A stretch of 64,000 nucleotides of DNA, taken from NCBI GenBank assembly GCA_016868315.1, contig VGHE01000001.1, forward strand, positions 124,001 to 188,000, given 5' to 3'. This stretch comes from Betaproteobacteria bacterium (GTDB taxonomy: Bacteria > Bdellovibrionota_B > Oligoflexia > Silvanigrellales > Silvanigrellaceae). How positions within the stretch are numbered: the first letter of the stretch is position 1; every line of letters starts with the position of its first letter. The notes beneath the pieces are model-generated. The model had not been told where the DNA came from. It did no database searches and saw nothing but the letters and a program-made list of their open reading frames with translations. Position numbers and translations under genes: made by a program. Of this stretch, positions 2,432 to 49,822 are shown one piece after another.

Positions 2432-2508
2432 TGGCCTGGTCGGCAGGATTCGAACCTGCGACCATCGGATTAGAAATCCGATGCTCTATCCAGCTGAGCT
2501 ACGACCAG
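2432..2508 (-). tRNA. tRNA-Arg (anticodon TCT)
   Basis: Read on the minus strand the sequence folds into a standard cloverleaf. It has a 7-bp acceptor stem (CTGGTCG with CGACCAG), a GCTC/GAGC D stem, an anticodon stem CGGAT/ATCCG with loop TTTCTAA, and a T arm GCAGG-TTCGAAT-CCTGC. A discriminator G is followed by an encoded CCA. The anticodon TCT reads AGA/AGG arginine codons. It is divergent from pilB. Confidence 0.97.
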
Positions 2509-2516
2509 ACGCACAA

Positions 2517-2544
2517 GACTTATCACACCGCGGTGACGTTGCAA
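2517..2544 (-). promoter_or_regulatory. Possible sigma70-type promoter for tRNA-Arg
   Basis: On the minus strand TTGCAA (2539-2544) and TAAGTC (2517-2522) are 16 bases apart and end 8 bases before the tRNA. The -35 box is fair and the -10 box poor, so the position is the main support. Confidence 0.35.
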
Positions 2545-2564
2545 GTGAGAGGGATGCTCAGGAC

Positions 2565-4313
2565 ATGGCTGGTGCTCGCATCGTCGAAATCATCAAACGC
2601 TCGAATCTGGTAGGCCAAGCGGATTTTGCCAGAGCCGTTGAGTTTGCCGAACGCGACAATGTGCCATTGGCTCTGTTTCTGCTTCGAAACCGGCTCGTGG
2701 CCGAAGATGCTTTGATGAAGGCTCTCTCTGAGGGGCTTGGGGGAATGGAAGTCATTTCGCCCGACAAAATCGACATCGACCCCAATATCTTAGCCAGCGT
2801 GCCCCGCGAAATAGTCGTTCAGCACCGCATTATTCCCATCAACAAGGTCACCAACAATCTCATTCTTGCGGTTGGCGACCCAACGAATTTGTCTGCTTTC
2901 GACGCAATTTCTGCAAAGCTGGGGGTGAAGCTCAGGCTCAAGCTTGCCAGTGAGCTATCCATCCAGAACGCCATTGGCCGCTATTATGGCGCGGGAGAGG
3001 AAGCTGCAAAGATTGCTGCCCAGCAGAAGGCCATGCAACAGAAGGCGGCAGCTGCGCTGGTCAACATGACATCGGGCGGAGCGAATGACAGCGGCGAGAG
3101 CTACGTCATTAATTACGTCGAACGCCTCATGTTGATTGCAGCCCAGAAGCGAGCCAGTGACATTCACATTGAGCCCTTTGAAAGCAGCATTCGCATTCGG
3201 CTGCGTATCGATGGTTCCTTGATTGAGTATAAGCCTCATGCCCGCTACGAATTCAAAGATGCTTTGTTGTCCCGTGTGAAATTGATTTCTGGACTGGATA
3301 TTTTCGAGAAACGTCTGCCGCAGGACGGAAATGCTAAGCTCGATATTCCTGGCCTGGGTAAAATGGACTTTCGTGTCAGCAGTCTGCCCTCGGTTTGGGG
3401 TGAAAAGATCGTTTTGCGTCTGCTCGATAAAAGCAACCTTCAGCTCGACATGACTGAACTGGGTTTCGACGGCGATCAGCTGATTCAATTCAAAGATTCA
3501 ATTATGAAGCCCTTCGGGATGGTTATTGTCACGGGACCAACAGGCTCTGGTAAAACTACGACCTTGTATTCCGCGTTGAACGAGCTCAACCGCATCACAG
3601 ACAACGTCGTCACCGCAGAAGATCCAGTTGAATTCACTATTCCTGGAATTTGTCAGGTCAATGTTCGCCCGGATATTGATTTCACATTCTCCAAAGCGCT
3701 TAAGGCCTTTTTGCGACAAGATCCGGACATCATCATGGTGGGTGAGATTCGTGATCTCGAGACCGGCGAAATTGCGATGAAAGCTGCGCTCACTGGCCAC
3801 ATCGTTCTTTCCACTCTTCACACAAACAATGCGGCTGAAAGCATCGAACGTCTGCGCAATATGGGCATAGACAAGTTCACTATTGTTTCGGCACTGAACT
3901 GTGTGGTTGCCCAGCGCCTGGTGCGCAAAATCTGCAATGAATGCCGCGAGGTTGATCCTGTTTCTGCGGAGAAACAGATAGCTCTCGGACTTCCAGAAAA
4001 ATACGTGGGCAAGTTTAAAATCTACAAAGGCCTGGGCTGCGAAAACTGCAACCACACGGGTTACCGGGGGCGGGCTGCAATTTACGAAGTGCTCACCGTG
4101 AGTGAGCCGGTCAAACGCGCGATTGTAGAGAACATGACCGCAATTGAAATAAAGAGAATTGCCATGACAAGCGGAATGCAGACGCTACGGCAAAGTGCGT
4201 GGCGTAAGGTCTACAAAGGGGTAACATCAGTGGATGAGCTGATTGAGGCCAGTGGATCCGATGACGATGCAAAGTCTGCGGCGATGCGAATCGAGCAAAT
4301 GAGGAGTGCTTGA
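2565..4313 (+). CDS. pilB: Type IV pilus assembly ATPase PilB
   Basis: A 582-residue GspE/PilB-family hexameric ATPase that powers pilus extension from the cytoplasmic face of the inner membrane. The N-terminal MshEN-type domain spans roughly 1-150. The ATPase core has Walker A GPTGSGKTTT (about 323), the Asp box, Walker B with VGEIRD, and the His box. A four-cysteine zinc site, CNEC near 455 and CENC near 491, is typical of PilB and GspE. The reading frame is open back into the tRNA, so the ATG at 2565 was chosen because it gives the usual N-terminus; its Shine-Dalgarno is weak. pilT starts one base after the stop, and pilC follows. Confidence 0.95.
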   Translation: MAGARIVEIIKRSNLVGQADFARAVEFAERDNVPLALFLLRNRLVAEDALMKALSEGLGGMEVISPDKIDIDPNILASVPREIVVQHRIIPINKVTNNLILAVGDPTNLSAFDAISAKLGVKLRLKLASELSIQNAIGRYYGAGEEAAKIAAQQKAMQQKAAAALVNMTSGGANDSGESYVINYVERLMLIAAQKRASDIHIEPFESSIRIRLRIDGSLIEYKPHARYEFKDALLSRVKLISGLDIFEKRLPQDGNAKLDIPGLGKMDFRVSSLPSVWGEKIVLRLLDKSNLQLDMTELGFDGDQLIQFKDSIMKPFGMVIVTGPTGSGKTTTLYSALNELNRITDNVVTAEDPVEFTIPGICQVNVRPDIDFTFSKALKAFLRQDPDIIMVGEIRDLETGEIAMKAALTGHIVLSTLHTNNAAESIERLRNMGIDKFTIVSALNCVVAQRLVRKICNECREVDPVSAEKQIALGLPEKYVGKFKIYKGLGCENCNHTGYRGRAAIYEVLTVSEPVKRAIVENMTAIEIKRIAMTSGMQTLRQSAWRKVYKGVTSVDELIEASGSDDDAKSAAMRIEQMRSA

Positions 4314-40974: not shown

Positions 40975-41757
40975 ATGGACAAGCAACATCAGTGTCCCTT
41001 TGTCAGCAAGCAGTCCTGGCGCAAAGGGCTCGTATCAGGACACCCGAGTGTTCATGTTTTGAGTCCCGGTCAGAATCCGGGAATGAGCGCATCGAATCAG
41101 TCCACGGGTTGGTTGCTTGGACTGGGCGGTGCTCATTTTGGGGAAGATCTCAGGCTTACGGAAGGTGAAACATTCATTGGCTCTGGCTGGGATTCAGACC
41201 TTGTGTTGACGACACCCGAGGTGAGTCGGCGTCATGCCAAATTCACGTCTGCCGCCGGAGTCACCCTCCTAGAAGACAACGGAAGTGCCACGGGTGTGTT
41301 TGTTAACGGTGAGAAGATTCTTGAGCCGCGCATGCTCGCACATGCAGATTTGATTCGCTTTGGCGTCGGTGAATTTCTCTATTTTTCTGCCGAACCGAAC
41401 CTGCAATCACAAGCAAATATTGAGCGATATATTGCCGTAGCGAATAAAAACTCACTCGCAACAGTCGGCTGGCTTCACTGCCTGACTGGCGAGTATTCTG
41501 GGATGGATTTTCGCTTGGTGAAAGGATTGAATCGATGCGGTTCTCTCCCTGGGGTTGAGGTTACCTTGCCAGATGCAAATTTGAACTCGACTCATATGAC
41601 CATTGAATGCAGTCCCGACAGGTTTTACCTGCGCCCCGGGTTTGCGAGTTTACAAGTCAAACGCAATGGCGTGCTCGTCGATCATCCCGGAAATCTGCGC
41701 GACTCAGATGTGTTCAAGATTGGGTCATTAGAATTGCGCCTGAGGGTCATCCGGTGA
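40975..41757 (+). CDS. Cytosolic protein with two FHA domains
   Basis: A 260-residue protein without signal or membrane segments. The first FHA domain (about 65-135) has the phosphothreonine-pocket marks GSGWDSDL, SRRH and GVFVNG. The second (about 165-255) is degenerate, retaining LNSTH where SxxH is expected and RNG for NG. FHA domains bind phosphothreonine. The ATG at 40975 has GGAG seven bases upstream; a GTG two codons before it is less likely. Its stop overlaps the start of the next gene. It is first of three overlapping FHA genes, which together look like one signalling unit. The 176-base gap upstream shows no clear promoter. Confidence 0.85.
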   Translation: MDKQHQCPFVSKQSWRKGLVSGHPSVHVLSPGQNPGMSASNQSTGWLLGLGGAHFGEDLRLTEGETFIGSGWDSDLVLTTPEVSRRHAKFTSAAGVTLLEDNGSATGVFVNGEKILEPRMLAHADLIRFGVGEFLYFSAEPNLQSQANIERYIAVANKNSLATVGWLHCLTGEYSGMDFRLVKGLNRCGSLPGVEVTLPDANLNSTHMTIECSPDRFYLRPGFASLQVKRNGVLVDHPGNLRDSDVFKIGSLELRLRVIR

Positions 41758-43283
41758 AGAAAAAATTTTTAACCTGCTTTTTGGCTTGTCTGGGAGCTTC
41801 AGTCATTGCTCCAAACGCATGGACACAGGACGTGTTGCCCACACCAAGTTCAACCCAAGCGCAAGAACTGCGTCGCAACATCTCCATCAGAGCCTATGAG
41901 ATTTTTCAGCAGCGTAAATTGCGTGTTCATCTCAGTGTCGATGAGTCGGATTCAGGTGGCCATTATTTTCTCAATACGCTTGATGCAAAATCATTTCGCC
42001 TCAAGAGTGATGACCCCAATGAGCTCCCGGTTGAACCCAGTTCGCTGAGTACATTTTCAACCCGTTCACCGACTTTGCCTCGAGAAACTGCTCTCGTATT
42101 TGAGGCGAATCAAGCGATTCCCAGCACTCAATCAGATGCAATTCGTTCTGCGGTTGCGGGATTTCTCGATCGGTTTCGTTCGGATGTGTTGACCGTACGT
42201 GCATCGGTGGGCGAGAAAGATGTCCGGCTCGCATTTATTGCGCCGGGTCAGTCGGAAAATCCACGTGCGATACAGCGTTCCATCTTGGAGTCGAAATCAC
42301 TTGTGGGTAAGGCCGGAATAGCAGCGGGCGTGTGCGCTGCGCTCGGGGAAATGCGTTCAAGCCCATCAGATAAGAGCGTTATACAAAAGACTCTCATTTT
42401 TATTTCACGTCCTGCACTCGAGAGCGATAAAAATTGGTCGGATTTAAAATCCTGCTTGTCAAAAAGTGAGGACTCCAACATTCGTTTCTTCTGGGTGCGT
42501 ATCCACGATCAGAATCCTGGCTTCGGAAAAATCGACGAAGAAATTCAGACAAAAATTGAGAAAAGTGGCGGATTCGTGAGTCGAATCAATGCCACCACAG
42601 ATCCTCTCGTTGCATTGAAGAATCTGCGTTCCTATCTCGATGACGAATACGTGCTTGAATTCGATTTGAGTCAACATCGCCCCTTCTCAGACGTGCTCAA
42701 ATTCAGAGTCACTGCAAATTATCACGGTAATCTGATTCGCAGTGAAGAAAGGGAATTTGAGGGATTTATTGCTCTCCCACGTCCCGAAGAGATCAAACGC
42801 ATCGAAGAGATTCGCGACCTCGAACGGCGTAAGGAACGGCGCACTTATCTCTTTCTCGCAGGTGTTTTGGCGACATCAGCACTGGTCATTGTTCTGCTTT
42901 TGCGTCGCAACAATGCTGGATGTTCCAAATGTGGATTTCGCGTGGCCAAGAATTATCAGGATTGCCCCTTCCGAAATCAGAAGTGTTTTGGACGCTTGAG
43001 TGTCATCCAAGGATCTCTTCAGGGTGCCGAATATCCGTTGTTTGTGGGTGAGAACACACTAGGGACAGCCATGTCCAAAACCATCCGTCTGCGTGCCAAG
43101 GGATTGGCCAGTCACCATGCAAAAATCGTCCTGACTCAGCGTAAGGCTCTATTTTCTCCAGAGAAGGGTGCAGAGTCGAGAGTCAACGGAGTGATTGCCA
43201 CCGAGCCCCGCCTGATTTCCTCTGGTACCATTTTGAGAGTGGGTACTTTGGTCTGCAGAATTGACTTCAAAGAGGGAGCATGA
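41754..43283 (+). CDS. VWA-like - TM - zinc ribbon - FHA transmembrane protein
   Basis: A 509-residue protein starting with GTG at 41754, overlapping the previous stop. Order: signal peptide (KKKFLTCFLACLGASVIAPN), an extracytoplasmic domain of about 340 residues, a membrane helix (TYLFLAGVLATSALVIVLLL), a four-Cys zinc ribbon (CSKC, then CPFRNQKC) and a C-terminal FHA domain (LASHH, RVNG). The outer domain has VWA-like alternating strands and helices (ETALVFEANQAIP; KTLIFISRP; IRFFWVRIHD), but the DxSxS metal site is missing. The topology puts VWA outside and FHA inside. Its stop overlaps the FHA-transglycosylase gene (ATGA), indicating tight coupling. Confidence 0.8.
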   Translation: MKKKFLTCFLACLGASVIAPNAWTQDVLPTPSSTQAQELRRNISIRAYEIFQQRKLRVHLSVDESDSGGHYFLNTLDAKSFRLKSDDPNELPVEPSSLSTFSTRSPTLPRETALVFEANQAIPSTQSDAIRSAVAGFLDRFRSDVLTVRASVGEKDVRLAFIAPGQSENPRAIQRSILESKSLVGKAGIAAGVCAALGEMRSSPSDKSVIQKTLIFISRPALESDKNWSDLKSCLSKSEDSNIRFFWVRIHDQNPGFGKIDEEIQTKIEKSGGFVSRINATTDPLVALKNLRSYLDDEYVLEFDLSQHRPFSDVLKFRVTANYHGNLIRSEEREFEGFIALPRPEEIKRIEEIRDLERRKERRTYLFLAGVLATSALVIVLLLRRNNAGCSKCGFRVAKNYQDCPFRNQKCFGRLSVIQGSLQGAEYPLFVGENTLGTAMSKTIRLRAKGLASHHAKIVLTQRKALFSPEKGAESRVNGVIATEPRLISSGTILRVGTLVCRIDFKEGA

Positions 43284-44494
43284 AGAGTCGATTTGTCATT
43301 CGATTTGTCGCTGGCCCTCTGCATGACAAATCCTTTGAATTGGGCGAAGGGGATCAGCGGATCCTCGGCAAAGGGGATACGGCTCAGGTGCGCCTCGATG
43401 AGGATGCTTTAGTGAGCCGGAGCCACGCGCGCTTGTCTCTTGAAAAAGGGTCGCTCTGGATTGAAGACCTAGGCAGCCGCAACGGCACTTTTATCAATGG
43501 CAAAAAGATTGAGAAGAAGACCTTGCTTCGGCCGGGCGACAAAGTCACGCTCGGGCAACTCAGTTGCTTCCAATGCTCACCCTGGAACGCACTTGAACCT
43601 TCTCGCTTTGCGAGCGTGGTTCTGACGCGAGTCACCAATGTTGCTGCGCGTATGAAGAGACGCCCCAAGGCTTCTATTTGGCCGCAGTTTTTGATGCTTC
43701 AATTTATAGTTTGTGTGGTCGTAGCTGCGGCATGGTGGGGCGGAAAGCAGCTGCGGTTGGGAGCTGCAAAATCACCCGTAGCAGAGAGTAGCCGCGAGGT
43801 CTCTGATCAAAGAGTGATGGAGAATCCGGTTCAAACTCCCCTGCGTACTGCGGTGCCCACGCCTGATGTGCCTCGAAATTTCATTTGGGATGAGATCGTT
43901 ACCATCTCCAGACGCTTTGGTGATACTCCGCCGTCGGCTATGGATTCTCAATTTCAAAAGTCGGTCGAAAGCTGGATAGAGCGCTTCACTAAAGGTGACG
44001 CTCATAAACGCATGTTCGAGCGGAAGGAAAAGTACTGGTCGACTATACAAGGCGCCCTTTCGGGAGAAGGTTTACCCGTCGAACTCGGTTACCTCGTGTG
44101 GATTGAATCAGAGTTTAATTTGGCTGCCTTGAGTCCGGTTGGGGCGCTCGGGCTATGGCAATTCATGCCCGGAACGGCGCGGGATTTTGGACTTCAGGTT
44201 GATTCGGCGCGGAAGCTGGATGAGCGCACCGATCCCGAGAAAAGCTCTCGTGCAGCAGCGCAGTATTTGTCGATGTTGCTCAAGCAATTCGGCACTGACC
44301 GATATTTGCTTGCGGTGGCTTCATATAACGCAGGTCAGAATAAAATTCGGCGCAAGGCAATTGCCGCGCAAATTCGTAGAGCACCCAAACCAGATTTCTG
44401 GGCATTGCGCGACCAATTGCCGCAGGAGACGGTCGATTACGTTCCGAAATTCCTTGCGGCGGTTATCATTAATCGCAATCCGGAACGCTGGTGA
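43280..44494 (+). CDS. FHA - TM - lytic transglycosylase fusion
   Basis: A 404-residue protein. The N-terminal FHA domain (about 25-100) is complete: GKGDTAQVRL, SRSHARLSL, GSRNGTFINGKKI. A membrane helix (about 134-152, LMLQFIVCVVVAAAWW) then leads to a Pro-rich linker and a family-1 SLT/MltD-like domain (about 240-400). Catalytic Glu lies in WIESEF, followed by GALGLWQFMPGTARDFGL and AVASYNAGQNKI. The FHA would face the cytoplasm and the SLT domain the periplasm, where it cleaves glycan strands. This arrangement suggests that phosphothreonine binding inside controls or positions wall cutting outside (inference). The 3' end overlaps the convergent methyltransferase gene by 26 bases. Confidence 0.88.
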   Translation: MKSRFVIRFVAGPLHDKSFELGEGDQRILGKGDTAQVRLDEDALVSRSHARLSLEKGSLWIEDLGSRNGTFINGKKIEKKTLLRPGDKVTLGQLSCFQCSPWNALEPSRFASVVLTRVTNVAARMKRRPKASIWPQFLMLQFIVCVVVAAAWWGGKQLRLGAAKSPVAESSREVSDQRVMENPVQTPLRTAVPTPDVPRNFIWDEIVTISRRFGDTPPSAMDSQFQKSVESWIERFTKGDAHKRMFERKEKYWSTIQGALSGEGLPVELGYLVWIESEFNLAALSPVGALGLWQFMPGTARDFGLQVDSARKLDERTDPEKSSRAAAQYLSMLLKQFGTDRYLLAVASYNAGQNKIRRKAIAAQIRRAPKPDFWALRDQLPQETVDYVPKFLAAVIINRNPERW

Positions 44495-46466: not shown

Positions 46467-47324
46467 TCAGAATATTTTGCGATAGATATGGCAGTAGGGC
46501 GTTTTCGCCTGATGGAAATAATATTTCTGATGATAGTCTTCAGCACTCCAGAAGTGAGCGGTCGGACGTATTTGTGTTGCAACCTTATGACCTTTCTGGC
46601 GCAGGGTTGCGATGACCTTTTCGACTGTTGCGCGCTCTTCGTCGTTGACCACAAAAATCGCAGACAGATATTGAGGGCCAATGTCTGGGCCTTGACCATC
46701 GGTTTGGCTGAAATCATGTGTTTCAAAGAACAGCTGACACAATTTCTCGTAGCTGACCTGCGCGGGATTGTAGACGATCTCGCAGCACTCTAAGTGACCT
46801 GTGGTGCCCGCACACACGGCCTTATAAGATGGATTATCCAGGTGTCCGCCTGCAAACCCAACGCGTGTGGCGAGCACGCCCTGGCAGCGCGCAAAATGAT
46901 ATTCAGTGCCCCAGAAACACCCCGATGCAAAAAGAGCGACAGCTTTAGGTTGGCTCTCGGTTGGTTTAAAGGTCAGGCTGATGGAGTTCACACAGTGGCG
47001 AATATTTTTTGGAGTGAAACCTTCTCCGGCGAACACGTGACCTAGGTGACCAGAGCAGGTCGCACACACGATTTCTATGCGCCGTCCGTCGGGATCGGGA
47101 ATTCTTTTGACACGTCCGGGGATTTCATCATCGAAACTAGGCCATCCGCAGTGAGAGGGAAATTTGTCTTCGGAGCGGTAAAGGGCAGAATCACATCGTT
47201 TGCAGTGGTAGTGTCCGGGTGAGTCAGTGCTGCAATACTCTCCCGAAAAAGGTTTTTCTGTGCCTTTTTTCTCGATAACCCACTCTTCAAAAGTGGACAA
47301 CTCACGGAATTTTGAAGTGTTCAT
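46467..47324 (-). CDS. Methionine sulfoxide reductase MsrB-MsrA fusion
   Basis: A 285-residue bifunctional enzyme that reduces both stereoisomers of methionine sulfoxide. The N-terminal MsrB domain (about 1-125) has the zinc cysteines (CKRC and CATC) and the catalytic Cys in RHCVNS. The C-terminal MsrA domain (about 127-285) has catalytic Cys in GCFWGTE and the QYLSAIF motif. The B-A order is the reverse of several well-known fusions such as Neisseria PilB. There is no signal peptide, so it is cytosolic. The start codon overlaps the stop of the upstream cyclase gene (TAATG) and there is no separate ribosome site, so translation is probably coupled. Confidence 0.95.
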   Translation of the reverse strand: MNTSKFRELSTFEEWVIEKKGTEKPFSGEYCSTDSPGHYHCKRCDSALYRSEDKFPSHCGWPSFDDEIPGRVKRIPDPDGRRIEIVCATCSGHLGHVFAGEGFTPKNIRHCVNSISLTFKPTESQPKAVALFASGCFWGTEYHFARCQGVLATRVGFAGGHLDNPSYKAVCAGTTGHLECCEIVYNPAQVSYEKLCQLFFETHDFSQTDGQGPDIGPQYLSAIFVVNDEERATVEKVIATLRQKGHKVATQIRPTAHFWSAEDYHQKYYFHQAKTPYCHIYRKIF

Positions 47325-49822
47325 TAGGATGCTCGCTGCAGATCGTTTTTGTTTTCGCCGGGCACCTTGACCTCGTAAAGAGTAACCATAGCGCTCCGGC
47401 CTTTGACGCGCACGGAGTCGAGCATGTTGACGCTAAACTCCTTGCTTTCAGCAGAAGACATATGCTGCAAAGTATCCTCGCTGACAATGATCTTCGCTGC
47501 ATATTTTTTGGTGAGGCTCTCGAGGCGCGAGGCCAAGTTAACTGAGTCTGACATCACGGTGCTCGACAGGCGCTCGGCATATCCAACAATTCCTAAAACC
47601 ATGGGACCATAGTGAATTCCAGTTCCAACCGCGACTTCTTGGTTGATGAGGCCTAGCCACCGGTCGTTGAAAGTGCGGAGTGCAATTTGAATGTCAATCG
47701 CACAGCGCACGGCATGCACCGGGGATTCCGGAAACAAGGCCATAATGGCGTCGCCAATGTACTTGTCGATGAATCCGCCGTGATGCTTTATGACGGGTGC
47801 GATTTGGGTCAAGAAACTGTTGATGAACTCGAAGTTTTGCGAGGGAGTCATTCCCTCAGAGATTTGAGTGAAGTTGCGTATGTCGGTGAACATCACAGCC
47901 ATGCGCAATTCAATGTGGTCGCCGAGGTTGAAGTCAATCAGGCTCTTCGACTTCAGAAGACGCAGGAAGTCATGAGGCACGAAGCGCAAAGAAGCCTGAT
48001 GCATTTTTTCAAGGTCAGAAGCAGATTCTTGCTTTTCAAGATTTACGGCCAAGGCGCTGGCCATGGTCGACAAAATGTAATCTTCTTCCTCACTCAGGTT
48101 TTCCTGCTCGACTCCCTCAAAGCGCAACAATCCTTTATATGAGGTTGTTCCATGGAGTGGAATATAAAGAGTGTTGTGCGCAAGTGTGATGTGGCTTTGA
48201 ATCTGATTCGTATCCCAATGATTGCTCTCGATGTATTCGACGTTTGCATTGGTTGTTGAGGGCAGCGTTTCGCGGATTCCTTTGACGATGGCATCGACCG
48301 ACTCGATAGGTGTCACAGTGCGCTGCAGGCTGAGTATTCCGGAGAAGAGAGATTCAAGTCGTGCCTTCATGCTCTTGCCGTACTTCATTGTTGAAGTGGT
48401 GCGCACGCCCAAGAAGAATGCGATGAGGGCAGTTTGGCTTGGCAAAAAAAGCAGGTCTTCCCACTTAAGTGTCTTCATGGTTGGGTTGACGAGCTCTCTG
48501 AAATTAGACATGCCGAAAATGAGCAGTGGTAGTGCAGCAAAACCAATACGAACAAAGTAGCTTTGCGTTCCAAAATCATCGTGTGCTTGAGTAAAGCTTG
48601 AGTATTGAGTTGATGTGTTTCCTTCAAACCGACTTTGTCGTTTGAGAAAGCCTATCCCCATCAAAGCAAGGCCGAGAGTCGCAGCAATGGCATCACGGAA
48701 ATAGTGCGACTTTACGAGAAACGCCTGAGGCGATTGTTTTGAAATGGCAAAGGAGGCAAGAAAAATGATAGCCGCAAACGTGGAAACTAGAATTGAAGCC
48801 TGAATGCTCCAGGCAGTTCCCGAACTAACACTGTATGCATAACGCAGTAACAAAGTCAGAACCACTCCCTCAAGGAGCACACAAACGATGCTCAGCAGAG
48901 ATAAAGTAGCACCGGGAATGAGATGTGCCTGCTGAAGGCCAATCACGCAAAGTGCATAGAGAAACATGGCTACCGAATAATCAGCAAGAGTGTTGAGAAT
49001 CGTTTCGTTTTTGAAAACAAAGCGAAAAGCAATCACGAAGATCGGCATAAGAAGCGCAATCAGATTCCACAAAACCACAGAAGAATGGGTCAGATTGTCG
49101 AGAGACATAACTTCATGGAGATACTGATTCTCGACCAGCAGAAACGGCCAACGTGATGGTCCCATTTCGCCCGTTGGACCAATTGTTATGTAATAGTCTA
49201 GCCGCCCATCTTCGGGCATCTGTTTGACCTCTGAGGTCGATGTTTGGGTAAAGCAGGCGAGCTTGTCTGTAGCCACGCGTAGGTCAAAGTCTTCGCCACC
49301 GGGTGTTTTGGAGACGCATTCAAAGCTGCCCAACTGAACCCTGAGCGCCTGCAGCGAAGCTTCACCACCCAGCGCATCGGAGGTGCGCTGAGAGAGCCAG
49401 AGTTTCTCGTGTTCGGAGAGAATGTAGGAGAGGTGCAGATGGGTTGGTCGCTCACTCATTTGGTTCAGTTTTGTCTTGAGATCAGTACTCAAGGGCAAGC
49501 TGACTTTCAATTTGCGCTCAGTTTTCCCGGGTGCACTCTCAAGGCCGAGAGTCTTGCAGCGATTGAAATCAGAGTAATAGCTGGGACAGTTGTAGGCACG
49601 CAGAGTCCACTCGCGCAGGGGAACTGCCCTTTTTTGCGTAACTAAGGTGTTGAGGCGTTCGCCCGCATCAAAATAACGCGCAACCGTACCAAAGGTTCCG
49701 GCCAGGCATAACATTCCAATCAGCCACAAAATCCCCAGCACCCTGTTTTGAGAGCGTTTGGGTAGCTCTTCCTGAACTTCATAGTCAGGGTGCATCGATT
49801 GTGGGAGATCGCCCAGTTCCAT
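47324..49822 (-). CDS. Seven-TM class III adenylate/guanylate cyclase
   Basis: An 832-residue membrane cyclase. One membrane helix (about 28-48) is followed by an extracytoplasmic domain of about 200 residues, about seven membrane helices (255-480), a GAF-like region (about 490-630) and a catalytic domain (about 640-815). Both metal-binding Asp are present (FTDIRNF and IGDAIMALF), as are the SDSVNLASRLE residues for adenine and the transition state. The layout resembles the 7TMR-DISM sensor plus cyclase class. It probably makes cAMP in response to an external signal. A start at 49795 is possible. It is translationally linked to msrBA downstream. Confidence 0.88.
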   Translation of the reverse strand: MELGDLPQSMHPDYEVQEELPKRSQNRVLGILWLIGMLCLAGTFGTVARYFDAGERLNTLVTQKRAVPLREWTLRAYNCPSYYSDFNRCKTLGLESAPGKTERKLKVSLPLSTDLKTKLNQMSERPTHLHLSYILSEHEKLWLSQRTSDALGGEASLQALRVQLGSFECVSKTPGGEDFDLRVATDKLACFTQTSTSEVKQMPEDGRLDYYITIGPTGEMGPSRWPFLLVENQYLHEVMSLDNLTHSSVVLWNLIALLMPIFVIAFRFVFKNETILNTLADYSVAMFLYALCVIGLQQAHLIPGATLSLLSIVCVLLEGVVLTLLLRYAYSVSSGTAWSIQASILVSTFAAIIFLASFAISKQSPQAFLVKSHYFRDAIAATLGLALMGIGFLKRQSRFEGNTSTQYSSFTQAHDDFGTQSYFVRIGFAALPLLIFGMSNFRELVNPTMKTLKWEDLLFLPSQTALIAFFLGVRTTSTMKYGKSMKARLESLFSGILSLQRTVTPIESVDAIVKGIRETLPSTTNANVEYIESNHWDTNQIQSHITLAHNTLYIPLHGTTSYKGLLRFEGVEQENLSEEEDYILSTMASALAVNLEKQESASDLEKMHQASLRFVPHDFLRLLKSKSLIDFNLGDHIELRMAVMFTDIRNFTQISEGMTPSQNFEFINSFLTQIAPVIKHHGGFIDKYIGDAIMALFPESPVHAVRCAIDIQIALRTFNDRWLGLINQEVAVGTGIHYGPMVLGIVGYAERLSSTVMSDSVNLASRLESLTKKYAAKIIVSEDTLQHMSSAESKEFSVNMLDSVRVKGRSAMVTLYEVKVPGENKNDLQRAS

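Follow-up and report, generated by a model that had tools for sequence, protein, structure and literature searches.

A compact locus of three genes, located at positions 40975-44494 of the 64,000-nucleotide stretch of DNA analysed here (hereafter the window), encodes what we take, with moderate confidence, to be a phosphorylation-independent inner-membrane scaffold for positioning or gating an accessory lytic transglycosylase. It is an open question how bacteria control, from the cytoplasm, the enzymes that cut their peptidoglycan, and only a small number of bitopic hydrolases are known to carry a folded interaction domain on the cytoplasmic side. The components of the trio all belong to known kinds of domain, and their combination is found, among the genomes searched, in two families of a single phylum. 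The initial annotation did not recognise the trio as a described system, and neither the trio nor an FHA-TM-SLT protein is described in the titles and abstracts of the open-access papers searched.

The three genes are carried by the plus strand, and neighbours share four bases each, as first claimed. A GTGA (41754-41757) combines the stop of gene 1 with the start of gene 2, and an ATGA (43280-43283) does the same for genes 2 and 3; both were read in the sequence. A 4-base overlap between genes 1 and 2 recurs in the paralogous trio of the same genome and in the copies of the same genus, and the ATGA overlap is kept in the own-genome paralogue. The longest open reading frame of gene 1 opens at GTG 40969, and the start was set at ATG 40975 because the orthologue in another genome (G002) begins at the matching position, which gives a gene spanning 40975-41757. 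Gene 2 runs from GTG 41754 to 43283 and gene 3 from ATG 43280 to 44494. A minus-strand open reading frame for an Rsm22-like methyltransferase shares 26 bases (44469-44494) with the 3' end of gene 3, tail to tail.

Gene 3 encodes the enzyme. An N-terminal FHA domain (about 43292-43573; Pfam FHA, E 4e-17) is followed by a transmembrane (TM) helix formed by a single strong hydrophobic segment (residues 133-151, about 43676-43732) and by an SLT/MltD-like domain predicted to be periplasmic (Pfam match at 44072-44359; SLT, E 5e-25). The catalytic glutamate and the ES, G.WQ and YN motifs that characterise SLT-type enzymes are all present: E276, whose codon lies at 44105-44107, S277, G291, W293, Q294, Y349 and N350 are invariant in 11/11 gene 3 sequences. 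Judged by these residues, the lytic transglycosylase looks intact. MltD is the best NCBIfam model and the catalytic domain and motifs are those of MltD, but the score of 93.6 bits falls under the curated equivalog cut-off of 508, so that gene 3 was rejected as MltD proper. By profile, the closest solved structure to the enzyme part is 8rhe, a LysM-containing relative. Unlike MltD, the gene 3 protein begins with an FHA-TM part rather than an exported start, and it has no C-terminal LysM part, since it ends soon past the catalytic domain. A separate and longer MltD-like enzyme of 617 residues is encoded in the same genome, and gene 3 is therefore considered an accessory enzyme: by its predicted architecture it is an extra transglycosylase that has an FHA-TM anchor where the usual start would be and that lacks the C-terminal extension. 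The fusion was not seen elsewhere, the FHA profile having matched none of 21 other SLT loci.

Gene 2 encodes a protein that starts with a hydrophobic stretch interpreted as a signal peptide and continues with a von Willebrand factor A (VWA) domain predicted to be periplasmic (residues 100-299 of the AlphaFold model, about 42051-42650), a single strong hydrophobic segment forming a TM helix (residues 365-383, about 42846-42902), four cysteines with the spacing of a zinc ribbon (42921-42986) and a C-terminal FHA domain (about 42984-43274). The VWA-like label given by the initial annotation proved apt: Pfam gave no VWA match here, but the AlphaFold model (pLDDT 80) has the Rossmann-like fold of VWA domains and superposes on 4fx5 with Z 18.9 and an rmsd of 2.7 over 177 residues of this predicted model. 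Not every VWA domain retains the metal-binding MIDAS motif DxSxS. A complete motif is present in none of the 11 gene 2 sequences, and only part of it is retained by the lineage of the second copy. Within the VWA part, the cysteines C194 and C234 are invariant, a pair that fits a periplasmic disulphide. The zinc-ribbon-like Cys4 motif is present in the lineage of the window copy and partly in the second family (f4), and is gone from the second-copy lineage (compare L018:9254-10789 with window 41754-43283).

The 260-amino acid product of gene 1 is soluble and predicted to be cytoplasmic, its hydrophobicity giving no TM segment. Pfam reports two FHA/Yop-YscD_cpl stretches (about 41101-41388 and 41461-41748), and the AlphaFold model (pLDDT 80, pTM 0.79) shows two FHA folds with best Z values of 18.2 for the first domain and 16.6 for the second. 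The claim that all three proteins carry FHA domains was thus borne out by Pfam and by AlphaFold with VIA-align and Foldseek; for gene 2 the domain was recovered by Foldseek, its Pfam match being sub-threshold (E 4e-4). In both membrane proteins positive residues are on the FHA side of the single hydrophobic segment, so the FHA domains are predicted to be cytoplasmic and the VWA and SLT domains periplasmic, in agreement with the topology proposed at first.

This arrangement is inherited as a unit. A second complete trio was found in the window genome (G000:C9:86462-90047), and 11 complete loci with identical gene order throughout were identified in 8/58 searched genomes of the phylum, the class-level and phylum-level searches covering the same 58 genomes. 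Two copies are present in both other genomes of the window genus, and in family f4 five genomes have one complete trio each and a sixth has a fragment at a contig end. Full-length gene 2 is confined to genomes having gene 3 and occurs, among the 58, in exactly the eight genomes with a complete trio; in a sister genus of the same family it was found in 0/8 genomes. Full-length matches to gene 3 are restricted to two families among 191 genomes, and a wider search of contigs added only metagenome bins of the same genus and one weak SLT match. Separate trees of genes 1, 2 and 3 recover the same clades, namely the window copy and its orthologues in the genus, the second copy and the orthologues belonging to it, and two groups from f4, which indicates that the unit was duplicated or moved whole. 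The window genus thus holds two old copies of the trio, each maintained separately.

That the genes are unrelated but co-transcribed, sharing a common domain through local duplication and having no joint function, is in our judgement very improbable. FHA is a common mobile domain, and one of the 11 loci is split by two inserted genes, the ten others being contiguous. This insertion, a subtilase gene plus one lacking any Pfam match, placed between trio genes 2 and 3 (L058:7051-9554, on contig C160 of G002), implies that strict co-translation is not essential. Nonetheless, the whole unit persists in two families and, within one genus, in duplicate, the gene trees are concordant and co-occurrence is complete. 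Recurrence in 11 complete loci argues that the arrangement is not due to chance. The initial annotation had proposed a compact inside-to-outside unit, to be abandoned if homologues were scattered in relatives; all genomes found to have the genes keep them together.

No neighbours are conserved beyond the trio across genera. In the window genus the two copies differ in their flanks, with genes for the Rsm22-like methyltransferase and lipoprotein-like products beside copy 1 and glutamine synthetase-like and CheX-like genes beside copy 2; trio copies of one f4 genus (g20) are preceded by selenophosphate synthetase-like genes. Downstream of the trio in the window (46467-49822), a methionine sulfoxide reductase-like open reading frame adjoins a multi-TM one with a cyclase-like C-terminus, and the same pair is found near the G002 trio (L058).

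The initial annotation proposed that the FHA domains read phosphothreonine, and it is on this point that our results diverge from it. All 44 FHA domains encoded by the 11 trios were aligned with 22 further FHA domains, used as controls, from the eight trio-bearing genomes. The full Arg+Ser+Asn pocket is present in 0/44 trio domains vs 21/22 controls, and the arginine that follows a conserved glycine is present in 4/44, all in gene 2, vs 22/22, although the exact alignment columns are uncertain for the domains that diverge most (gene 2 and the second FHA of gene 1) and the contrast does not amount to 66 independent observations, because the trio domains go back to a small number of ancestors and most of the controls are top-scoring FHA matches. 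The least eroded domain is the FHA of gene 3 in the window lineage, in which SR.H and NGT are kept and only the arginine is changed, to lysine; it may retain weak phospho-binding, since serine and asparagine are kept and lysine stands in for arginine. In family f4 further pocket residues of this domain have been lost too. By sequence, the closest solved FHA domain to that of gene 3 is Chlamydia CT664 (3gqs), of SctD type, in which Gly-Ser likewise takes the place of Gly-Arg. The trio pocket pattern resembles, by analogy, that of PrgH of the type III secretion inner ring, whose FHA domain has a poorly conserved pocket, is judged an unlikely phosphothreonine binder, tolerates pocket mutations and is needed for assembly (PMC3635987). 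A different case is DgcB, an FHA-GGDEF protein of Bdellovibrio (6hc0), which shares the FHA fold with gene 1 (Z 17.2) but uses R61 in recognising its own phosphothreonine tail (PMC6733907), whereas the pocket arginine is absent from 40/44 trio domains. Phosphothreonine reading by the trio FHA domains is, on these residues, doubtful.

A cell-wall enzyme controlled by phosphothreonine, with an unlinked Hanks kinase writing the mark, the FHA domains reading it and a PP2C phosphatase erasing it, is accordingly an explanation that we consider unlikely. The genomes do contain possible writers, with 5-7 Pkinase matches per trio genome searched, the window carries a PP2C gene, and the FHA domain of gene 3 in the window copy retains the residues noted above. 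These points are opposed by the missing arginine and incomplete pockets, by the additional losses in f4 and by the genomic context: PF00069 matched nothing on the trio contigs of the eight genomes, including contigs of 555, 319, 125 and 109 kb, so that the expected linkage to a Hanks kinase did not materialise. The PP2C gene itself is real (1437-2267), but it is 39 kb from the trio. Since the FHA domains have lost residues that phosphate reading requires, a complex that positions the enzyme is likelier than a phosphorylation switch. In the segment 206-4313 of the window, the PP2C gene lies beside an M23 peptidase gene, both on the minus strand, and a gene for a type II secretion/pilus ATPase (2481-4313) is oriented away from the pair. 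Elsewhere in the window genome (L019:6263-9831, contig C3), a Hanks-type kinase gene is one gene away from a DgcB-like FHA-GGDEF gene with the GR and SR.H pocket residues; from its sequence, this protein is likely the kinase-linked FHA reader of the genome.

The closest parallels to the trio come from envelope machines. Like SctD/PrgH/YscD/CdsD, the inner-membrane ring proteins of type III secretion systems, the membrane proteins of the trio combine a cytoplasmic FHA domain without conserved phosphothreonine pocket, one TM helix and a periplasmic part, and for genes 1 and 2 no FHA-type Pfam model does better than Yop-YscD_cpl. Unlike SctD, their periplasmic parts are SLT or VWA domains and not ring-building domains, the NCBIfam SctD model scores only 34, 20 and 11 bits on the trio (cut-off 86), and injectisome genes were not found. 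GltG (PglI) of the Myxococcus gliding machinery is likewise bitopic, with a cytosolic FHA and a periplasmic domain (PMC3169522), but that domain is TonB_C rather than SLT, and the window genome has a separate GltG-like gene. This FHA-TonB_C gene lies downstream of two genes for TPR-type proteins (L021:3691-10032, at about 541 kb of contig C1), in an order resembling gltD-gltE-gltG of Myxococcus.

The trio could in principle belong to a larger trans-envelope machine for secretion or gliding, with gene 3 making an opening in the peptidoglycan for its assembly and with an inner-membrane base built from genes 1 and 2, an explanation to which we assign a low probability. The FHA-TM-periplasm topology is common to SctD and GltG, secretion systems often bring their own lytic transglycosylase (PMC1084347), and the GltG-like protein adjoins TPR-type proteins in the window genome. 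No machine genes were seen beside any trio copy read, however, and about 370 kb separate the trio from the GltG-like gene. Type VI secretion, with TagH/Fha as the FHA component, was rejected, with no match to the VipB sheath protein in eight genomes. An injectisome was rejected as well: each genome has one FHIPEP gene, which in the window genome lies in a flagellar cluster with the order fliP-fliR-flhB-flhA-flhF, and hence there is no sign of such a system. Anti-phage defence was also considered, and PADLOC gave no match.

We therefore return to the scaffold, which could operate as follows. A single TM tether, ending in an FHA domain on the cytoplasmic side, would hold the MltD-type catalytic part of the gene 3 protein in the periplasm, and the gene 2 protein would provide a second tether, with VWA in the periplasm and the Cys4 motif and FHA at the cytoplasmic end. 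Inside the cell, the soluble gene 1 protein would use its pair of FHA domains to bridge the tails of the two others or to cluster them, the FHA domains acting as protein-protein modules independent of phosphorylation, as proposed for the SctD/PrgH ring. The periplasmic VWA domain may recognise an envelope partner and so limit where or when peptidoglycan is cut, provided that the enzyme is active. A functional analogy, with no sequence relation and with a different hydrolase and scaffold, is offered by LmdC, a bitopic M23 endopeptidase recruited through its N-terminal cytoplasmic region by the cytoplasmic bactofilin scaffold BacA (PMC10945521). More tentatively, all four FHA domains of the three proteins could assemble, independently of phosphorylation, into a cytoplasmic platform coupling a periplasmic VWA sensor to the tethered transglycosylase, with two parallel copies per cell.

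With only three genes, apparently accessory and duplicated, the trio is amenable to single and double deletions. If the scaffold reading holds, the trio would provide an example, beyond secretion systems, of FHA domains having become structural glue.
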